A stretch of 64,000 nt of DNA from Mesorhizobium sp. CAU 1732. GTDB lineage: Bacteria; Pseudomonadota; Alphaproteobacteria; Rhizobiales; Rhizobiaceae. Under the pieces are notes generated by a model. The model made no database searches, was not told where the DNA came from, and was given only the letters and a program-made list of their open reading frames with translations. The stretch spans positions 1 through 64,000 of the forward strand of contig NZ_JBDQQR010000002.1 of the NCBI RefSeq assembly GCF_039888675.1, in the 5' to 3' direction. Position 1 is the stretch's first letter. Each line of letters begins with the position of its first letter. The position numbers and the translations under genes are program-made. Of this stretch, positions 32,367 to 41,211 are shown piece by piece.

Positions 32367-33758
32367 GTGGCAGGAGCACCGGAGCAAGCAGCCGGCGTCA
32401 TCGGCGGCATCGCGCGCACCCGCATCGACGCGCTGCGGGCGCGTGAAGCGAAGATGTACGCGCATGCCCGTCCGCAGTCGCGCAAGGCGATGGCCGAGGG
32501 CGTGAGCGGCTATCTGGCGGGCGTTCCGATGCACTGGATGCGCGACTGGCCGATGCCTTTCGCCTTCGTGGTGGAGAAGGCGTCCGGCGCCACGATCACG
32601 GATATCGATGGACACCGCCTGGACGATTTCTGCCTTGGCGACACCGGCTCGATGTTCAGCCATTCGCCCGCACCGGTCGCGCGCGCGATCAGGCGGCAGG
32701 CCAGGCGCGGCCTGACATACATGCTGCCTTCGACCGACGCGCTCGTGCTCGGTGATCTCCTGGCACGACGCTTCGGCCTGCCCTCTTGGCAGATCGCGAC
32801 GACGGCGACGGATGCCAACCGGTTCGCGCTGCGCGTCGCGCGCGCGGTCACGGGACGGCCGAAAATCCTCGTCTTCAACGGCTGCTACCATGGCTCGGTA
32901 GACGAGACGATGGTGAACCTCAGGCATGGCCGGCCAGTCAACCGGCCCGGGCTGGCCGGCGAGTTCCGCGATCTCACCGAGACGACCCGCATCGTGGAGT
33001 TCAACGATCTCGACGCGCTGGATGCGGCGCTTGGCGAGGGCGACGTCGCTTGCGTCATAACCGAGCCTGTCCTGACCAATTCGTGCATGGTCCTCCCACA
33101 GCCGGGCTTTCACGATGGCTTGCGCGATCTCACCCGCAAGCACGGCACGCTGCTTCTCATCGACGAGACGCATACGATCTCGACCGCCCCCGGCGGCTAT
33201 ACGCGCGCCTTTGGACTCGAGCCTGATCTCTTCGTTCTCGGGAAGCCGGTGGCCGGTGGCGTGCCGGCCAGCGTCTGGGGCATGAGCGCCGACGTCGCGG
33301 AGCGCTGGACGGCTTATGAGCAGACCAAGGAGCCCGGCTATTCCGGCATGGGCACGACGCTGTCGGCCAACCCGCTCCAGTTCGCCGCGATGCGCGCCAC
33401 ACTGGAAGAGGTGATGACCGAGAAGGCCTATGCGCATATGGACAAGCTCGCCGAACGGCTGGAGCTTGGCCTGCGCGCGGCGATCGAACGTCACGGCCTG
33501 CCGTGGCATGTCGCCCGCGTCGGCGCGCGCGTCGAGTTCATCTGCGCGCCGGGGCCGCTGCGCAACGGCGCGGAAGCCGAGCTTGCCCATGCGCCGGAAC
33601 TGGAGGCCGCGATCCATGTCGGCCTCGTCAATCGCGGCTGCCTGATCGCGCCTTTCCACAACATGATGCTGATCTCGCCGGCAACGAAGAAGAAGCAGGT
33701 CGATCGGCTGGTGGAAGCGTTCGATGAGATTGTCCGGGAGTTGACCTCACATGTCTGA
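32367..33758 (+). CDS. Class III aminotransferase (glutamate-1-semialdehyde-aminomutase-like)
   Basis: 463 residues of fold-type I PLP enzyme. Landmarks: SGATITDIDGHRLDDFCLGD, NGCYHGSVDE, LLIDETHTISTAPGG (PLP-ring Asp), and LFVLGKPVAGGVPAS, which carries the Schiff-base lysine. Glutamate-1-semialdehyde aminomutase is the nearest fold relative, but the context (a glutamine-synthetase-like gene next) suggests an amine or amino acid transaminase. The start GTG at 32367 has GAGGGAG upstream. A palindromic repeat separates it from the next gene. Confidence 0.87.
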   Translation: MAGAPEQAAGVIGGIARTRIDALRAREAKMYAHARPQSRKAMAEGVSGYLAGVPMHWMRDWPMPFAFVVEKASGATITDIDGHRLDDFCLGDTGSMFSHSPAPVARAIRRQARRGLTYMLPSTDALVLGDLLARRFGLPSWQIATTATDANRFALRVARAVTGRPKILVFNGCYHGSVDETMVNLRHGRPVNRPGLAGEFRDLTETTRIVEFNDLDALDAALGEGDVACVITEPVLTNSCMVLPQPGFHDGLRDLTRKHGTLLLIDETHTISTAPGGYTRAFGLEPDLFVLGKPVAGGVPASVWGMSADVAERWTAYEQTKEPGYSGMGTTLSANPLQFAAMRATLEEVMTEKAYAHMDKLAERLELGLRAAIERHGLPWHVARVGARVEFICAPGPLRNGAEAELAHAPELEAAIHVGLVNRGCLIAPFHNMMLISPATKKKQVDRLVEAFDEIVRELTSHV

Positions 33759-33770
33759 GTTCCTTCGCGC

Positions 33771-33926
33771 GCCCCTCTGCCCTGCCGGGCATCTCCCCCA
33801 CGAGGGGGGAGATCAGTCTGCATCTGCGTTTTCGCCAACCTCCAGCCTTGCAGGACGAGCGGAGAGGGTGATGAAGGATAATCTCCCCCCTCGCGGGGGA
33901 GATGTCCGGCAGGACAGAGGGGGGCG
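33771..33926. repeat. Mosaic palindromic repeat, copy 1
   Basis: Outer arms (33771 onward, CCCCTCTGCCCTGCCGGGCA; and the complementary arm ending at 33926) flank two inner hairpins (33791-33813 and about 33880-33903) and a 65-base central segment. It lies in the 207-base gap between the aminotransferase and glutamine-synthetase-like genes; copies 2, 4 and 5 share the arms. Confidence 0.8.
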
Positions 33927-33965
33927 CCACAGAACGCCAACCCTGCAATTTGGAGCCAGTTTCGC

Positions 33966-35354
33966 ATGACCTCCCCCTCCGGCTCCTCCCCCGACGAGGC
34001 CCTCGCCTTCCTGGACGCGCATCTCGACATCGAGGCCTTCGACATCGTTTTGACCGATGCCAACGGCGTGGGACGCGGCAAGATCATCCGACGCCACGAA
34101 CTTGAGGCGTTCTACAAAGGTGGCCGCCATCTGCCGATCTCGATCCTCGGCCTCGACATCACCGGTGAGGATGTCCACGAGACCGGCCTGATCTGGGATT
34201 CCGGCGACGGCGATTTGCGCGCATGGCCCATACCCGGCACGCTGAAGCCGCTTCACGGCACGACCCCGCCGCGCGGACAGGCGCTGATGTCGATGTATGG
34301 TCTCGACGGCACGCCGATGACCAGCGATCCGCGCCACGCGCTGCTTCGGCAAGTCGCGGCGATGAAGGCGCGCGGCCTGCATCCTGCCGGTGCCTTCGAA
34401 CTCGAATTCTTCCTGCTGGCCAACGAACGCGACGCCGAAGGGCGCGTCCAACCGGCGCGCGCCGTCGTGGACGGGCGCGCCAGCGGCAAGACCGAAGTCT
34501 ATTCCGTCGATCATTTGCACGGCATGGAGCCGCTGTTCTCCGACATCTACGCTGCGGCCAAAGCGCAGGGCATACCCGCCGAGACGGTGATTTCGGAATA
34601 TGCGCCCGGCCAGTACGAGCTGACCCTGAACTACCGCAAAGACGTGATGCAGGCGGCCGACGATCTCGTCATGCTCAAGCGCATCGTACGCATGCAGGCG
34701 CGCCGCCACGGCGTCACCGCCTGCTTCATGGCAAAGCCGATCGAGCGCTATGCGGGATCCGGCATGCATTTCCACGTTTCGCTGCAGGACGATGCCGGCC
34801 GCAACGTCTTCGCGGAGGAGGCGGAGGGCACATGGAACCCCAAGCTGCTTCACGCGATCGGCGGGCTGTCGCACACGATGGCGGAATCCATGCTGGTCTT
34901 TGCCCCGCACGCCAATTCCTGGCGGCGTTTCGTCTCGCAATCCTACGCGCCCGTCGCGCCGACCTGGGGCGTCAACAACCGCTCGGTCGCCCTGCGTGTA
35001 CCGGCCGGCGACGTGAAGGCGCGGCGCATCGAGCACCGCCCCTCCGGCGTCGACGCGAACCCCTATCTTGTGGCGGCGACGATACTCGCCGGCATTCTCA
35101 AGGGACTGGACGACAGCCTCGATCCGGGGCCTGAAACCACCGGCAATGGCTACGCGGCGGACGAAAACGACAAAGCCGTGATGCCGGCGGACTGGCTGAC
35201 CGCGATCAAGGCGGCGGAGGGCTCGGCATTCCTGAAATCCGCTCTGGGCGAGGACATGCACCGCACGTTCACCGCGATCAAGCGGGCGGAATATCTGCGC
35301 GTGGCCAAGACCGTCAGCGAACTGGACTATCACCTCTACCTCCACGAGGTGTGA
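33966..35354 (+). CDS. Glutamine-synthetase-family protein, gamma-glutamylputrescine-synthetase-like
   Basis: 462 residues with the GS-II-type catalytic motifs: HPAGAFELEFFLL, EYAPGQYELTL, GSGMHFHVSL, and NNRSVALRVP; the N-terminal VLTDANGVGRGK is typical of the PuuA branch, which joins glutamate to amines with ATP. Together with the adjacent aminotransferase it may catabolise putrescine or another amine through gamma-glutamyl intermediates, but the gene pair differs from the E. coli puu order. GGAG lies ten bases before the ATG at 33966. Confidence 0.85.
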   Translation: MTSPSGSSPDEALAFLDAHLDIEAFDIVLTDANGVGRGKIIRRHELEAFYKGGRHLPISILGLDITGEDVHETGLIWDSGDGDLRAWPIPGTLKPLHGTTPPRGQALMSMYGLDGTPMTSDPRHALLRQVAAMKARGLHPAGAFELEFFLLANERDAEGRVQPARAVVDGRASGKTEVYSVDHLHGMEPLFSDIYAAAKAQGIPAETVISEYAPGQYELTLNYRKDVMQAADDLVMLKRIVRMQARRHGVTACFMAKPIERYAGSGMHFHVSLQDDAGRNVFAEEAEGTWNPKLLHAIGGLSHTMAESMLVFAPHANSWRRFVSQSYAPVAPTWGVNNRSVALRVPAGDVKARRIEHRPSGVDANPYLVAATILAGILKGLDDSLDPGPETTGNGYAADENDKAVMPADWLTAIKAAEGSAFLKSALGEDMHRTFTAIKRAEYLRVAKTVSELDYHLYLHEV

Positions 35355-35399
35355 TCGCATCGCGCGATGTGTCAAAAGTTATAGACGGCGAGGACGCCA

Positions 35400-35414
35400 G
35401 AACATATCATGAAC
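35400..35414 (+). promoter_or_regulatory. LexA (SOS) box of alphaproteobacterial type
   Basis: GAAC-ATATCAT-GAAC is a perfect match to GAAC-N7-GAAC (GTTC-N7-GTTC on the other strand), the direct-repeat operator used by LexA in many alphaproteobacteria. It ends two bases before the radical SAM gene ATG, a position where bound LexA would block transcription. A TTATAG about 20 bases upstream could be the -10. Confidence 0.75.
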
Positions 35415-35416
35415 GA

Positions 35417-36652
35417 ATGTCAGCACCGTCACTCGCTCAAAAGCTTGCCATCCTCGCCGATGCCGCCAAATACGATGCGTCCTGCGCATCGTCGGGCGGT
35501 GCCGGTCGCAATTCGCTGAAATCCAAGGGCATCGGCTCGACCGAGGGGAGCGGCATCTGCCATTCCTACGCGCCGGATGGGCGCTGCATCTCGCTGCTCA
35601 AGATCCTGCTGACCAATTTCTGCATCTATGACTGCGTGTATTGCGTGAACCGGTCGTCCTCGAACGTGCGCCGCGCCCGTTTCACGATCGACGAAGTCGT
35701 CAATCTCACGCTCGATTTCTACAAGCGCAACTACATCGAGGGCCTGTTCCTTTCCTCGGGCGTGATCCGATCGCCGGACGAAACCATGGCCGAGATGGTG
35801 GAGATCGCGCGGCGGTTGCGGATCGATCACGCGTTTCATGGCTACATCCACCTCAAGATGATCCCCGAAGCGAGCCGCGACCTGATCGCGCAGGCGGGTC
35901 TTTACGCCGACCGGCTGTCGATCAATGTCGAACTGCCGACCGACGAGGGCGTGAAGCGGCTCGCACCGCAGAAGAAGCCCGAGACGATCCGCGTATCGAT
36001 GGCTCGGCTGCGCGAAAAGATCGAGGAAAAGTCCGAGCCGACCATGCGGACCAAAAAGCGGCAGCGCTTCGCGCCGGCCGGACAATCGACGCAGATGATC
36101 GTCGGCGCGGACGCGGCCACGGATTCCGATATCCTTTCGACTTCCGCCCGGCTTTATTCGGGCTACCACCTCCGGCGCGTCTATTACTCGGCCTTCAGCC
36201 CAATCCCGGATTCATCGTCGGCCCTTCCGCTGGTGCGCCCGCCTCTGATGCGCGAGCACAGGCTTTATCAGGCGGATTGGCTGATGCGGTTCTACGGCTT
36301 CGAGCGCAACGAGATCGTCGCCGGCCGGCCGGATGGGATGCTCGATTTGGACATCGACCCCAAGCTTGCCTGGGCGCTCGTCAACCGCCACGCCTTCCCG
36401 CTCGACGTGAATCGCGCCCCGCGCGAGATGCTCTTACGCATTCCCGGCATCGGCACCAAGGTCGTCACGCGCATGCTGGACATCCGGCGATACAAGCGCC
36501 TCCGGATCGAGGATGTCGCCCGCCTCTGCCAGTCGATCGCGAAGGTGCGACCCTTCATCGTCGCCGATGGGTGGTCGCCGCGCGGCATGACGGACGAGGA
36601 GAATTTGCGCGGTCGGCTGGTGCCGGCACCGAAGCAGTTGAGTTTGTTCTAA
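35417..36652 (+). CDS. Radical SAM protein linked to UdgX (putative DNA modification/repair)
   Basis: 411 residues. Radical SAM cluster motif CX3CX2C in NFCIYDCVYCVNR, followed by a TIM-barrel region (SGVIRSPDETMAEMVE, GYIHLKMIP) and a C-terminal helix-hairpin-helix DNA-binding motif (LLRIPGIGTKVVTRMLDIR). This fits the TIGR03916 family, putative DNA modification/repair radical SAM proteins always seen beside UdgX genes. The substrate is unknown. I chose ATG at 35417 because family proteins start just before KLAILADAAKYDASC; a GTG at 35351 overlapping the glutamine-synthetase stop is possible. Confidence 0.85.
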   Translation: MSAPSLAQKLAILADAAKYDASCASSGGAGRNSLKSKGIGSTEGSGICHSYAPDGRCISLLKILLTNFCIYDCVYCVNRSSSNVRRARFTIDEVVNLTLDFYKRNYIEGLFLSSGVIRSPDETMAEMVEIARRLRIDHAFHGYIHLKMIPEASRDLIAQAGLYADRLSINVELPTDEGVKRLAPQKKPETIRVSMARLREKIEEKSEPTMRTKKRQRFAPAGQSTQMIVGADAATDSDILSTSARLYSGYHLRRVYYSAFSPIPDSSSALPLVRPPLMREHRLYQADWLMRFYGFERNEIVAGRPDGMLDLDIDPKLAWALVNRHAFPLDVNRAPREMLLRIPGIGTKVVTRMLDIRRYKRLRIEDVARLCQSIAKVRPFIVADGWSPRGMTDEENLRGRLVPAPKQLSLF

Positions 36653-36683
36653 CGCGGCATTTGCGATGGTCACGCCCTACGTT

Positions 36684-36750
36684 GCCCCCCTCTGCCCTGC
36701 CGGGCATCTCCCCCCTCGTGGGGGAGATGCCCGGCAGGGCAGAGGGGGGC
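36684..36750. repeat. Mosaic palindromic repeat, copy 2 (compact perfect hairpin)
   Basis: A perfect 31-bp stem with a 5-base loop (CTCGT): left arm 36684-36714, right arm 36720-36750, with the GCCCCCCTCTG...CAGAGGGGGGC ends shared with copies 1, 4 and 5. It lies inside the radical SAM / udgX cassette and ends 23 bases before the udgX ATG, so its RNA hairpin could affect expression of udgX. Confidence 0.9.
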
Positions 36751-36773
36751 GCGACAGATCGCGGTGCCCCACG

Positions 36774-38225
36774 ATGAGCCCAGTTTACCACACCGTCCGC
36801 CTCGCCTCCGAGACCGATTTCGACGGGTGGCGCGATGCGGCGCGCAGGCTTGCGCTAAACGAGATAGAGCCCGGCGCGATCACATGGCAGGTCGGCGACG
36901 GGGACGATCTGTTTTCCGATGCGACACCCCTGCCGGAAGCACCGCCTGGCGCGACGATGAACGTTCCGCGCGACTTCGTGGAAAAGGCGAAAGCCGTGAT
37001 CTGCCATCGCGACCCGGCACGGTTCGGCCTTCTCTACCGTATCCTGTTCAGGCTGCGGAGCGAGCCGCATCTGATGAAAATCGCCTCCGACCCGGACATC
37101 ATCGCGCTCCGCGAGCACGAGAAATCCGTGCGGCGCGACATCCACAAGATGCGCGCCTTCGTGCGTTTTGTGAAGGTCGGCCAGGGCGAGGACGAGCGGT
37201 TCGTCGCATGGTTCGAACCGGACCACTACATCGTAGAGCGCAACGCGGATTTCTTCGTTCGCCGGTTCGCCGGCATGCGCTGGACGATCCTGACGCCGCA
37301 TGCCTCGGCCGACTGGGATGGCGACAGCCTCGTCATCGGGCCGGGCGCGACCAGGGCCGATGCGCCTCTGGAAGACGCCGCAAACGATCTATGGCGCACC
37401 TATTTCACCAACATCTTCAATCCGGCGCGCCTGAAGGTGAAGGCGATGCAGGCCGAGATGCCGAAGAAGTACTGGCGGAACCTGCCCGAGGCTTCGCTCA
37501 TTCCTGATCTGATCAAGAATGCGGACCGATCTGCCCGGGAGATGCTGGAAAGGATGCCCACAATGCCCGCGCCGCACCACGCCAAGGTGCAGGAAAAGCA
37601 CTGGAGCAAGCCTGAGGAACACGCGCCGGAGGACGCGACCTCCATTCCCGAGCTTCGCCGCCAGGCCGAGAGCTGCCGGCGCTGCCCGCTGTGGCAGGAC
37701 GCGACGCAGACGGTGTTCGGCGAAGGACCGGAAACGGCGGAAATAATCTTCGTCGGCGAGCAGCCGGGCGACCAGGAGGACATTGCCGGCAAGCCGTTCG
37801 TCGGCCCGGCGGGGCGCGTGTTCGACGAGGTGATCGATGAGGCCGGCATCGCGCGTGAAAAACTCTACGTCACGAATGCGGTCAAGCACTTCAAGTTCGA
37901 GCCGCGCGGCAAGCGGCGCATCCACCAGAAGCCGAACGCCGGCGAGGTCAAGGCATGCCGCTGGTGGATCGACCACGAGATCGGCCTGATCAAGCCGGCC
38001 CTCGTCGTCGCGATGGGCGCGACCGCCGCCCAGTCGCTGCTCGGCAAGGCTATTCCCATCACGCGCATGCGCGGCGAGATCGTCACCCGCGACGATGGCG
38101 TGCAGGTCTTTTTGACGATCCACCCCTCGTTTATCCTGCGCATTCGAGAGCCTGACGAAGCGCAGGCCGAGCGCGCGCGGTTCGTGAAGGACATGCAGGC
38201 GGTCAAGGCGCTGATGGGGGTGTAA
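36774..38225 (+). CDS. udgX: UdgX-type uracil-DNA glycosylase fused to DUF4130
   Basis: 483 residues. The N-terminal half (about 1-245) is the DUF4130 domain (SDPDIIALREHEKSVRRDIH, KMRAFVRF). The C-terminal half (about 290-480) is a family 4-like uracil-DNA glycosylase, with motif A GEQPGDQED starting at G328 and the UdgX-specific loop KRRIHQKP; His384 corresponds to the residue that bonds covalently to the abasic site in characterised UdgX. Cysteines CRRCPLW and others can hold a 4Fe-4S cluster. The ATG at 36774 has no clear ribosome-binding site. It is paired with the radical SAM gene and the LexA box. Confidence 0.9.
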   Translation: MSPVYHTVRLASETDFDGWRDAARRLALNEIEPGAITWQVGDGDDLFSDATPLPEAPPGATMNVPRDFVEKAKAVICHRDPARFGLLYRILFRLRSEPHLMKIASDPDIIALREHEKSVRRDIHKMRAFVRFVKVGQGEDERFVAWFEPDHYIVERNADFFVRRFAGMRWTILTPHASADWDGDSLVIGPGATRADAPLEDAANDLWRTYFTNIFNPARLKVKAMQAEMPKKYWRNLPEASLIPDLIKNADRSAREMLERMPTMPAPHHAKVQEKHWSKPEEHAPEDATSIPELRRQAESCRRCPLWQDATQTVFGEGPETAEIIFVGEQPGDQEDIAGKPFVGPAGRVFDEVIDEAGIAREKLYVTNAVKHFKFEPRGKRRIHQKPNAGEVKACRWWIDHEIGLIKPALVVAMGATAAQSLLGKAIPITRMRGEIVTRDDGVQVFLTIHPSFILRIREPDEAQAERARFVKDMQAVKALMGV

Positions 38226-38248
38226 GGGAGCGAGACGGCGAGACGTAG

Positions 38249-38395
38249 ACCCCCCACTCCGTCGCGCTGCGCGCGCCACCTCTCCCCCTCAAAAGGGGAG
38301 AGGAAACCAAGCTGAAGAAGCGATGCATTGCGGCAGTAATTCTTCTACCCCGGGCAGGGGGAGAGGTGGCGCGCGCAGCGCGACGGAGTGGGGGT
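38249..38395. repeat. Long-arm palindromic repeat of a second family, copy 3
   Basis: Complementary arms of about 39 bases (38249-38289 and 38356-38395) with ends ACCCCCCACTCCGTCGCGC and GCGCGACGGAGTGGGGGT, and an inner 66-base segment carrying another small hairpin (CTCCCCCTcaaaAGGGGAG). It fills the gap between udgX and the convergent glycerate kinase gene and does not share the arms of copies 1, 2, 4 and 5. Confidence 0.85.
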
Positions 38396-38405
38396 GGTTC
38401 GTCCG

Positions 38406-39671
38406 CTACAAAACCAACACCGCCCGCAGATCGTTGACATTGGTGCCGGTCGGGCCGGGCGCGAAGAGACCGCCGACCGCATCGAACGCGGTCCATGCAT
38501 CGTTTCGTGCAAGCGCGGCCTTGGGGTCTACCCCGGCAGCCCGCATGCGCTTGGGGGTCGTAAAATCGGCAAACGCGCCCGCATTCGCTTCCGATCCGTC
38601 GATCCCGTCGGTATCGGCTGCAAAGGCATGGATGCCCTCGACGCCGTCGATGGCGAGCGCGAAGGCGAGCAGGAACTCCGAGTTGCGCCCACCCTTGCCA
38701 TCCTTTGCGCGGATCGTCACCGTCGTCTCTCCCCCCGACAGCAACAGGACCGGCTTTTCGAACGGCCGGTTCCTCATTGCGACCTCGCGGGCGATTGCCG
38801 CATGGACGCCCGCGACGTCACGCGCCTCGCCCTCGATCGAATCCGACAGGATGACCGCTTTGATGCCATGACGCGCGGCTTCCGAGGCGGCTGCCTCCAG
38901 CGATCGCGCGGCGGAGGCGATCAGGTGGACCTCGTTGCGCGCAAAACGTGGATCGTCGGGGGATGGCGCATCGGCCGCCGGCGTATCGAGATGCTTGAGT
39001 GCTGCTGCGGGCAGGTCCAGGCGGTAGGCATCGACGATCGCCAGTGCATCAGCGCGAGTGCCCGCGTCCGGCACGGTCGGCCCCGATGCCACATAGGCCG
39101 GATTGTCGCCCGGTATGTCGGAGACGATCAGCGACACCATTTTCGCCGGGTGCGCGGCAAGGGCGAGCCGCCCGCCCTTGATCGTGGAGAGGTGCTTGCG
39201 CACCGTGTTCATGGCGGCGATCGGCGCGCCGGACGCCAGCAGCGCGCGGTTGACCGCGATCTCGTCGGCCAGCGTCATGCCATCGGGCGGCGATGGCAAT
39301 AGCGCCGAACCGCCGCCGGAAATCAGCGCGATGACGAGGTCGTTTTCGGTGAGGCCCGAAACCGCATCGAACAGCCGATGGGAGGCGGCTAGTCCGGCTT
39401 CGTCCGGCACCGGATGCGCCGCCTCGATGATCTCGATGCGTTCGCATGCGCAGCCATAGCCGTAGCGGGTGACGACGACGCCTTCGAGCGGTCCGTCCCA
39501 CGCCTGCTCCAGCGCACGCGCCATCTGCGCCGAACCCTTGCCAGCGCCGACGACGACGGTACGCCCCTCAGGCTTCTGCGGCAGGACATCACGGATGGTG
39601 CGCTGTGGGTCGGCGGCATCGACGGCGGCGTCGAAGAGAGAGGTGAAGAGGGATTTGGGGTCGATGGTCAT
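38406..39671 (-). CDS. Glycerate 2-kinase (MOFRL family)
   Basis: 421 residues. N-terminal half has VVVGAGKGSAQMARALEQAW and LISGGGSALLPSPP; C-terminal MOFRL region has LLLSGGETTVTIRAKDGKGG and AADTDGIDGSEANAGAF. This GckA/TtuD-type enzyme phosphorylates D-glycerate to 2-phosphoglycerate with ATP. Ureidoglycolate breakdown by the neighbouring purine genes gives glyoxylate, whose glycerate route (glyoxylate carboligase and tartronate semialdehyde reductase, not in this window) would feed this kinase. Confidence 0.92.
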   Translation of the reverse strand: MTIDPKSLFTSLFDAAVDAADPQRTIRDVLPQKPEGRTVVVGAGKGSAQMARALEQAWDGPLEGVVVTRYGYGCACERIEIIEAAHPVPDEAGLAASHRLFDAVSGLTENDLVIALISGGGSALLPSPPDGMTLADEIAVNRALLASGAPIAAMNTVRKHLSTIKGGRLALAAHPAKMVSLIVSDIPGDNPAYVASGPTVPDAGTRADALAIVDAYRLDLPAAALKHLDTPAADAPSPDDPRFARNEVHLIASAARSLEAAASEAARHGIKAVILSDSIEGEARDVAGVHAAIAREVAMRNRPFEKPVLLLSGGETTVTIRAKDGKGGRNSEFLLAFALAIDGVEGIHAFAADTDGIDGSEANAGAFADFTTPKRMRAAGVDPKAALARNDAWTAFDAVGGLFAPGPTGTNVNDLRAVLVL

Positions 39672-39701
39672 TCGCTGGTGTGACCCCGGTTGGTACGCAC
39701 C

Positions 39702-39872
39702 CTACGTTGCCCCCCTCTGTCCTGCCGGACATCTCCCCCACGAGGGGGGAGATCGGCCGTCACGTCGGCTTCTGCCAATCTCAAGCGTTGCACAATGGGC
39801 GATGACAGAGATGAAGGCTGATCTCCCCCCGTGTGGGGGAGATGTCCGGCAGGACAGAGGGGGGCAACGTAG
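39702..39872. repeat. Mosaic palindromic repeat, copy 4
   Basis: Left arm from CTACGTTGCCCCCCTCTG at 39702 and right arm ending at 39872 are complementary over about 38 bases. Between them are two hairpins and a 66-base central segment that resembles the central segment of copy 1 (shared ...CGATGA-AGA--GATGAAGG--... pattern). It lies between the glycerate kinase and guanine deaminase genes. Confidence 0.85.
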
Positions 39873-39897
39873 AGTGCGACCATAGCCGTCGAATTTC

Positions 39898-41211
39898 TCA
39901 ACCGACCAACCCGCTTTTCGCAGGCCTGCCCGCGACATAGACTTCCCGCACAGCCCTGTCATCCCCCATGGTCTGGAGCAGGAAGAGTTCTTCAGCGAGC
40001 GTCTCCACGGTTTCCATGCGCAGCGCCATGCCAGGTGTCGAACGTGCATCGAGCACGACGATGTCCGCATCGGTCCCGGCATCGAGCGTGCCCACGCGCG
40101 CATCAATGGACAGCGCCTTGGCGTTGCCGAGCGTGATCTGCCAGAACGAGGCGAGCGGGTTGAGCTTCTCGCCCTGCAGCGCTATGACCTTGTAGCCCTC
40201 GTCCATGGTGCGCAGCATCGAATAGTTGGTGCCGCCGCCGACATCGGTCGCGGTGGCGATGCGCAGGGGCTTCGCGCGGCGGGAATAGCGCTGGTAGTCG
40301 AAAAGGCCTGAGCCGAGGAACAGGTTCGAGGTCGGGCAGAAGACCGCGATCGAGCCGGTATCCGACAGGGCATCCGCCTCGCGTTCCGAGAGATGGATGC
40401 AGTGACCGAACAGCGCCTTCGGCCCGAGTAGGCCATATTGCGCATAGATTTCGGTGTAGTCCCTGGCCTCTGGATAAAGCTCCATCGTATAGGCGATTTC
40501 GGCGTGGTTCTCCGACAGATGCGTCTGCATGTGCAGGTCGGGGTGCTCGCGCATCAGCGCGCCGGCCATATCCATCTGCTCTGGGCTCGACGTGATCGCA
40601 AAGCGCGGCGTGACGGCGTAATGCAGCCGCCCTTTGCCGTGCCAGTCGGCGATCAGCGCCTTCGTGTCGTCATAGCCGGATTGCGGGGTGTCGCAAACGC
40701 CGTCCGGCGCGTTGCGGTCCATCATCACCTTGCCGGCGATGACCAGCATGTCGCGCTCCAGCGCCTCGGCGAAGAAGGCGTCGGCGCTCTCCCGATGCAC
40801 CGAACAATAGGCCGCGACGGTCGTCGTGCCCTGCCGGACCATCTCGTCCAGAAACAGCCGCGCGATGCGCCGCCCGTGCTGGGTGTCGCGGAACTTGCTC
40901 TCTTCGGGAAAGGTGTAGGTGTTGAGCCAGTCGAGCAGTTCGGCGCCATAGCTCGCGATCACCTGCATCTGCGGCACGTGAACATGCGCGTCGATGAAGC
41001 CCGGCAGGATGAGATGCGGGCGGTGATCGACGACGCGCACATCCCTGCCGGCTTCGGACGAGACGAGATGAAAATTGCCGACGGCTGCAATTTTGCCGTC
41101 GCGGATCAGGACCGCGCCATCCTCCTCGTAGCGATAGGAAGCGCGATCGTCGATGGCCTCAGGCCGGGTGAGGAAAGAGAGGACGCGCCCGCGCAGGAGG
41201 AGCGCGCTCAC
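39898..41211 (-). CDS. guaD: Guanine deaminase
   Basis: 437 residues of the amidohydrolase superfamily, guanine-deaminase subgroup: metal ligands in LPGFIDAHVHVPQMQ, TVAAYCSVH, QTHLSENHAE, GHCIHLSERE, and ATDVGGGTNYSMLR. It deaminates guanine to xanthine. The GTG start at 41211 overlaps the stop of the urate hydroxylase gene as GTGA, so the two are translationally coupled. Extending the frame to 42264 would merely read into puuD. Confidence 0.93.
   Translation of the reverse strand: MSALLLRGRVLSFLTRPEAIDDRASYRYEEDGAVLIRDGKIAAVGNFHLVSSEAGRDVRVVDHRPHLILPGFIDAHVHVPQMQVIASYGAELLDWLNTYTFPEESKFRDTQHGRRIARLFLDEMVRQGTTTVAAYCSVHRESADAFFAEALERDMLVIAGKVMMDRNAPDGVCDTPQSGYDDTKALIADWHGKGRLHYAVTPRFAITSSPEQMDMAGALMREHPDLHMQTHLSENHAEIAYTMELYPEARDYTEIYAQYGLLGPKALFGHCIHLSEREADALSDTGSIAVFCPTSNLFLGSGLFDYQRYSRRAKPLRIATATDVGGGTNYSMLRTMDEGYKVIALQGEKLNPLASFWQITLGNAKALSIDARVGTLDAGTDADIVVLDARSTPGMALRMETVETLAEELFLLQTMGDDRAVREVYVAGRPAKSGLVG

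Follow-up and report, generated by a model that had tools for sequence, protein, structure and literature searches.

The window analysed here is a stretch of 64,000 bp from the genome of Mesorhizobium sp. CAU 1732 (contig NZ_JBDQQR010000002.1, positions 1 to 64,000), in which a gene for a radical SAM (S-adenosylmethionine) protein is preceded by a LexA-type box and followed by a gene for a fusion of DUF4130 with UdgX, a protein of the uracil-DNA glycosylase (UDG) family. The features are collected in Table 1. An earlier note on this DNA had placed a GAAC-N7-GAAC box two bases ahead of the radical SAM gene, and this was confirmed: GAACATATCATGAAC occupies positions 35400-35414 and is followed by GA and by the ATG at 35417, which is in frame with an open reading frame (ORF) of 411 codons ending in a stop codon at 36650-36652. 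The protein identities proposed in that note also held. The first protein has the CX3CX2C motif and belongs to TIGR03916 (rSAM_link_UDG), which we take to be the same family as COG4277, with 565.8 bits against a curated cutoff of 343.5. Its helix-hairpin-helix (HhH) was found through a profile of 94 relatives (A1), which matches the HhH of ComEA (2duy) at positions 322-377 with an E value of 0.0065; PF12836 is precomputed in relatives, while scanning the window protein itself against Pfam gave Radical_SAM only. The second protein matches TIGR03915 and TIGR03914 in its two halves, and the UdgX half shows motif A (GEQPG), the R-loop KRRIH and the family-4 UDG fold.

Table 1 Features of the radical SAM and DUF4130-UdgX cassette (window coordinates)
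Feature	Position	Strand	Basis
-35 element TAGACG (predicted)	35382..35387	+	Promoter scan; matches T-N-G-N-C columns in relatives
LexA operator GAACATATCATGAAC (GAAC-N7-GAAC), predicted	35400..35414	+	Motif match; conserved in 76/80 orthologs
-10 element TATCAT (predicted), inside operator N7	35405..35410	+	Promoter scan and consensus of relatives; 17-bp spacer to -35
Radical SAM gene (TIGR03916, 411 aa)	35417..36652	+	ORF reading, profile match; predicted leaderless
Cys23, extra cysteine	35483..35485	+	Invariant 107/107
Cys48-His49	35558..35563	+	Invariant 107/107
Cys57, extra cysteine	35585..35587	+	Invariant 107/107
CX3CX2C (Cys69, Cys73, Cys76), radical SAM cluster ligands	35621..35644	+	107/107; PF04055
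Helix-hairpin-helix, residues about 334-357	36416..36487	+	Profile of relatives vs ComEA HhH 2duy
Palindromic repeat between the two genes	36684..36750	+	Perfect palindrome, 31-bp arms, 5-nt loop, 67 bp
DUF4130-UdgX fusion gene (483 aa)	36774..38225	+	TIGR03915/DUF4130 half and TIGR03914/UdgX half
DUF4130 / TIGR03915 domain, constant partner	36807..37493	+	Profile match
UdgX / TIGR03914 domain	37497..38204	+	Profile match
His384 in KRRIH, corresponding to His109 of UdgX (the residue that traps covalently)	37923..37925	+	Alignment

A single GAAC-N7-GAAC box is by itself weak evidence of regulation. Six exact copies are present in the window (1.76 expected), and the 5.44-Mb genome contains 197, versus 80 for a reversed control. 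The tighter pattern GAACRWWN4GAAC was found at 27 sites in the genome, versus 4 in the control, and ten genes near these sites, hand-chosen for starts close to the site, were scanned for families. DNA polymerase IV (dinB), SSB, a YifB/ComM ATPase, a PA0069-family radical SAM protein and an O6-methylguanine methyltransferase scored above curated cutoffs; a ParE-type topoisomerase, whose stretch was clipped at the locus end, reached 480.7 bits, under its cutoff, and an ImuA-like protein 47.5 bits, under the cutoff of 150. The remaining genes encode SNase-like, 2'-5' RNA ligase-like and DnaA C-terminal-like proteins, while other sites among the 27, some of them inside ORFs, may be chance matches. 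The lexA match of the genome at C1:2879413 has a box, GAACACAACTGGAAC, 53-67 nt ahead of it (C1:2879346-2879360). Since both repair genes and lexA carry such sites, this genome very probably uses the GAAC-N7-GAAC box type. Two of the scanned genes stand out in their own right: the PA0069-family gene is a second radical SAM gene (L114, 274-1425, minus strand) with a LexA-type box 75 nt upstream, and the gene for the small DnaA C-terminal helix-turn-helix protein (L116, 1518-1985, plus strand) starts 2 nt after its box, the same spacing as in the radical SAM gene.

The key question is whether the box is retained upstream of the gene in other species. Among the 80 best alphaproteobacterial orthologs, taken from one genome per species, an exact GAAC-N7-GAAC was present no more than 60 nt ahead of the aligned start in 76, while the box density outside the 75-nt upstream windows of the same loci predicts 0.21 of 80; three of the four exceptions (L067, L088 and L104) have a box with one mismatch when read by eye. 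The columns around the box are weakly conserved save for a -35-like element, so the conservation of the box is not a mere consequence of recent ancestry. A second set was obtained from 398 Pseudomonadota genomes drawn evenly over the phylum, 84 of which encode the TIGR03916 enzyme above cutoff; the loci of all 83 other than the genome of the window were retrieved. The box was found in 45 of the 53 alphaproteobacterial genomes scored, and 46 of 54 when L227, in which GAACGGAACGGGAAC was read by eye, is counted. In the other classes, an exact CTGT-N8-ACAG, presumably the E. coli-type LexA box, takes its place in 19 of 28 scored genomes (19 of 29 counting L138), with five more at one mismatch (L156 and L169-L172, partly by eye). 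The alpha-type box was absent upstream in the non-alpha set, and CTGT-N8-ACAG was absent upstream in the alpha set. Among six further loci outside both sets, a gut scaffold (L165) has two exact copies of GAAC-N4-GTTC, which we take to be the Firmicutes-type LexA box, and L160 and L162 have it with one mismatch. Regulation of the radical SAM gene thus seems to have changed in step with the LexA dialect of each host, and this is strong evidence that the box is functional. SOS control of the cassette through a predicted LexA operator, as the earlier note had proposed, is therefore strongly supported by conservation in the orthologs and by the exchange of the box for a different LexA-type motif outside the Alphaproteobacteria.

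SOS control of such a pair is not new, because it has been reported or predicted in Alphaproteobacteria, Verrucomicrobia, Bacteroidetes and Clostridium. The accessible part of PMC8565304 reports SOS regulation of a UDG-based repair system in Verrucomicrobia and Alphaproteobacteria, citing Erill 2016 and Paes da Rocha 2008, and infers SOS control of the COG1573-COG4277 operon in Bacteroidetes; that of PMC3828012 predicts LexA control of CAC3343-CAC3344 in Clostridium acetobutylicum. In the accessible text of PMC3765255, Aravind and colleagues describe DUF4130 as a predicted mutagenesis-related enzyme that is linked to SplB-like photolyases and UDGs and might modify thymines. Excerpts of PMC13130816 report a gene of this name, together with recA, as up-regulated in Acinetobacter Tol 5 when desiccation was severe, and excerpts of PMC7739468 mention that SOS regulons include a radical SAM protein, without specifying which; the gene appears in PMC9611098 only as a table entry, none of the terms sought occurs in PMC10776899, and the accessible part of PMC1839093 contains nothing on the radical SAM/DUF4130-UdgX pair. 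Literature searches combining UdgX with radical SAM, LexA with both, and LexA with leaderless and alphaproteobacteria returned nothing on the pair, and no described reaction for the radical SAM protein was found in the open-licence literature.

The operator overlaps a predicted promoter. An independent scan identified TAGACG/TATCAT as the sole promoter-like site in 35300-38400, which is not significant alone (0.5 expected in shuffles). Alignment of 77 boxes, 70 of them forward-oriented, gave A-TATAAT as the commonest bases of N7 in the forward-oriented boxes (T 0.90, A 0.81, T 0.61, A 0.50, A 0.50 and T 0.37), preceded by T-N-G-N-C at -18, -16 and -14 from the box (0.70, 0.74 and 0.71) with a 17-bp spacer. 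The predicted transcription start falls at or beside the radical SAM ATG. In the 77 boxed loci, where start codons were picked mechanically, the distance from the box to the start is exactly 2 nt in 38 and falls within 1-4 nt in 49; it is 5 nt in 6 loci and 11-27 nt in another 15, and in 7 the script chose a codon within the box. As the operator contains the predicted -10 and transcription is predicted to start at the ATG, we infer from the promoter anatomy that the mRNA is leaderless and that LexA directly occludes the -10 element. In three loci with the other box type (L146, L147 and L155), CTGT-N8-ACAG overlaps the start codon, provided that the GTG chosen by the script is the start; this would be a further way of placing the operator at the start.

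Another important question is which protein is the partner of the radical SAM enzyme. It had been paired with UdgX in the earlier note, and UdgX is indeed fused to the downstream gene product here; the distribution of the families, however, points to DUF4130. In the 398 sampled genomes, DUF4130 (TIGR03915) was above cutoff in 87 and UdgX (TIGR03914) in 78. DUF4130 was encoded downstream, on the contig and strand of the enzyme gene, in all 84 radical SAM genomes, the two profile matches being at most 500 nt apart in 79, and it occurred without the enzyme in 3 of 314 genomes. UdgX was above cutoff in 63 of the 84 and in 15 of the 314 genomes lacking the enzyme, so that the co-occurrence coefficient phi with the enzyme is 0.98 for DUF4130 versus 0.72 for UdgX, a wide difference even if the genomes sampled are not independent. 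A requirement of the radical SAM gene for UdgX was rejected on the 21 enzyme-bearing genomes without above-cutoff UdgX, and the same counts make it unlikely that the enzyme merely serves UdgX. The constant partner thus appears to be DUF4130, and radical SAM plus DUF4130, with UdgX in an accessory role, describes the cassette better.

Inspection of individual loci showed several forms of the partner. In one of the 21 UdgX-negative genomes (G387, locus L145), a UDG domain is fused but degenerate, and in L192 the DUF4130 and UDG parts are in different frames. Short partners matching TIGR03915 only were confirmed by profile in L138, Parabacteroides L158 and the Acinetobacter-labelled L163; L153 and L173 also have DUF4130 only, and L090 and L104 have DUF4130-type ORFs without a UDG motif. 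Fused UdgX lies downstream in L075, L084, L088, L101, L106 and L149, the partner is ~3 kb away in L207 (G229) and L210 (G241), and no DUF4130-type ORF was found within the 4 kb examined in L041. The trapping His is present in 72 of 72 fusions selected by a pattern that itself demands His; among eight fusions missed by this pattern, it is present in six, replaced by Asn in L101 and opposite a gap in L145. The R-loop of L101 (Qipengyuania sp.) reads KRRLN. Covalent trapping of uracil-derived sites by the fused UdgX fits the sequence of the window protein. For DUF4130, a PDB sequence search with its profile gave one match (E 2.6), and Pfam gave DUF4130 in nine of nine, with one stray member match (E 0.045). 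In the structure search with the fusion protein, the matches listed are taken up by the UDG half, so that in effect the search covered the fold of that half only.

The radical SAM protein carries, in addition to its cluster ligands, the layout C23-x24-C48-H-x7-C57, the four residues of which are invariant in 107 of 107 proteins from three phyla, and the spacing CHx7Cx11Cx3Cx2C is fixed in 344 of 346 proteins. A group of paralogs lacks the three N-terminal cysteines and retains CX3CX2C, RExRLYQ and an HhH-like C-terminus. The invariance of the four residues, together with the absence of the cysteines from the paralogs, suggests that C23, C48, C57 and perhaps H49 form a second metal site. A paralog of this group is present on Gemmatirosa plasmid 1 (L161), and DUF4130 was not found on that record. 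The AlphaFold2 model of the protein shows a barrel of the HydE/LipA/BioB type, and PDB sequence and profile searches found no full-length solved structure related by sequence. The spore photoproduct lyase (SPL) family was not listed for the protein among NCBIfam matches at E <= 0.001, in a library in which the presence of an SPL model was unchecked. Carriage of the gene by phages was considered and dropped: of the ten matches labelled as phages, eight are human-gut scaffolds and two are records labelled Acinetobacter; one of these two, when examined, had glyQ/glyS beside the gene and looks like bacterial DNA, and nothing was drawn from the ten as phages.

The two genes are separated in the window by 121 bp containing the palindrome. 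The RNA of this interval (36653-36773) folds at -98.3 kcal/mol (z -9.7), and a 25-nt piece of the palindrome arm has 34 matches in the genome at up to 2 mismatches and 8 in the window at up to 3. In 69 alphaproteobacterial loci with mechanically picked start codons, the second gene overlaps the first or starts at most 10 nt past its end in 40, the gap is 11-100 nt in 18 and it is longer in 11, so the gap in the window is unusual but not unique. The palindrome is not taken as a component of the ancestral cassette. A family scan of two upstream neighbours, the only ones covered, showed one to be an aminotransferase gene and the other to be glutamine synthetase-like. The Rfam scan of 33000-40500 gave nothing at gathering score, and for a role in defence, which was considered, the PADLOC search (E 0.01) gave no match.

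Taken together, these data make it probable that the locus is an SOS-inducible DNA-lesion-processing cassette in which LexA sits over the -10 element, the radical SAM protein and DUF4130 form the core and UdgX is an accessory. In an undamaged cell, LexA would cover the -10 element and keep the operon off; after damage, LexA would be cleaved and the leaderless mRNA made. The radical SAM protein would bind DNA through its C-terminal HhH, and its 5'-deoxyadenosyl radical would act on a base or sugar that is damaged or unusual, assisted by the putative second metal site of C23, C48, C57 and perhaps H49. DUF4130 would take part in the same step, either presenting the substrate or acting as a second enzyme, while UdgX would be a fusion-added accessory that traps uracil-derived sites, on which the core reaction would not depend. 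A more far-reaching suggestion, which we make only tentatively, is that the two-metal-site enzyme and DUF4130 constitute a separate, widespread pathway of DNA-damage-induced base chemistry, whose second site (C23, C48, H49 and C57) arose or was kept with DUF4130 and onto which UdgX was grafted later in some lineages.

Several observations weigh against parts of this interpretation. The sampled genomes are not independent of one another, and boxes of the tested kinds are missing from eight alphaproteobacterial genomes of the phylum sample, seven of them from one family (f3), and from 5 of 29 non-alpha genomes (four scored and L138); no convincing box was seen in Parabacteroides L158, Subdoligranulum L159 or the Acinetobacter-labelled L163 either. 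For the leaderless mRNA, the start follows the box at exactly 2 nt in just 38 of 77 loci, and, as LexA boxes have an AT-rich centre, the resemblance of N7 to a -10 element is in part confounded. For the second metal site, the aligned H49 is still present in 18 of 120 paralogs, the N-terminal cysteine region is poorly modelled (block means 54-66), and zinc instead of a second cluster is possible. The boxless f3 loci (L193-L196, L200, L201 and L204) show a feature of their own: in six of the seven genomes, a common upstream sequence, GAGTCAATCGAATTGG ... GAATCAA, can be read by eye, which suggests a different regulator.

A doubtful alternative is direct lesion reversal by a single cluster in the style of spore photoproduct lyase, with the extra Cys3-His binding zinc or serving as structure. 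Against it, LipA, which carries an N-terminal auxiliary cluster, is among the closest barrels, and the invariance of the three cysteines and the His, with the spacing from CH-C to CX3CX2C fixed in nearly all proteins, points to something beyond a loose zinc loop; on the other hand, the paralogs without the extra cysteines keep the other motifs, from which it follows that the core chemistry may not need these cysteines, and SplB is SOS-regulated in several species according to the accessible part of PMC8565304. That the pair prepares mutagenesis, for instance by converting lesions into forms that SOS polymerases can read, is unlikely. The designation of DUF4130 in the available text of PMC3765255 and the box of the same kind at the imuA-like and dinB genes of this genome agree with such a role, whereas the two scanned upstream neighbours are not polymerases. 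We give very little credence to the idea that the radical SAM enzyme resolves or resets the covalent UdgX-DNA adduct, which would make radical SAM and UdgX the functional pair: the partner gene includes a fused UdgX in the window and in most of the 80 alphaproteobacterial loci, the trapping His of UdgX is usually present, and the resolution of UdgX adducts is an open question in the accessible part of PMC10359453, but enzyme and UdgX occur apart in the 21 and 15 genomes mentioned above, and in the L101 fusion the trapping His is replaced by Asn. Finally, a chance box without LexA function, conceivable given the 197 exact sites in the genome, is rejected by the occurrence of the box in 76 of 80 orthologs, where 0.21 would be expected, and by the motif switch in other classes, and can practically be dismissed.

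With DUF4130 rather than UdgX as the constant partner, the search for the function of the radical SAM enzyme is redirected: DUF4130 is the protein that belongs in its assay, and the UdgX-less genomes are a clean place to seek its phenotype. Four residues (C23, C48, H49 and C57) are offered for mutation, with the natural cysteine-less paralogs as a comparison. The presence of the enzyme in 84 of 398 sampled Pseudomonadota genomes shows how widespread the radical SAM partner of the SOS pair is.

Among known systems, the closest is the COG4277-COG1573 base-excision-repair pair of the SOS response, in which, according to the accessible literature, a radical SAM/HhH protein likewise stands beside a UDG-family protein under LexA; the window differs by the palindromic repeat between the genes, and the promoter-operator overlap, the constancy of DUF4130 and the extra cysteines were not found in the accessible parts of the literature on that pair. 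The Clostridium acetobutylicum pair CAC3343-CAC3344, the second member of which we infer to be a DUF4130 protein, would be under a LexA of a different lineage from that of the window. SplB is also an SOS-linked radical SAM protein of DNA repair in the accessible parts of PMC8565304 and PMC3765255; it is COG1533 in PMC8565304, and SPL is not among the family matches of the window protein at E 0.001. The UdgX of Mycobacterium smegmatis is a PDB chain of 207 residues, whereas in the window UdgX makes up the C-terminal half of a fusion with DUF4130, with a LexA-type box upstream. Lipoyl synthase, biotin synthase and HydE, for which we know of no DNA substrates, have a barrel similar to that of the AlphaFold2 model, at 11-17% identity in the matches concerned. 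The window protein does not have the CX4CX5C motif, which we take to be that of the lipoyl synthase auxiliary cluster, so its likeness to LipA is confined to the barrel, and it differs from all three enzymes in its C-terminal HhH and in the spacing of its N-terminal cysteines.

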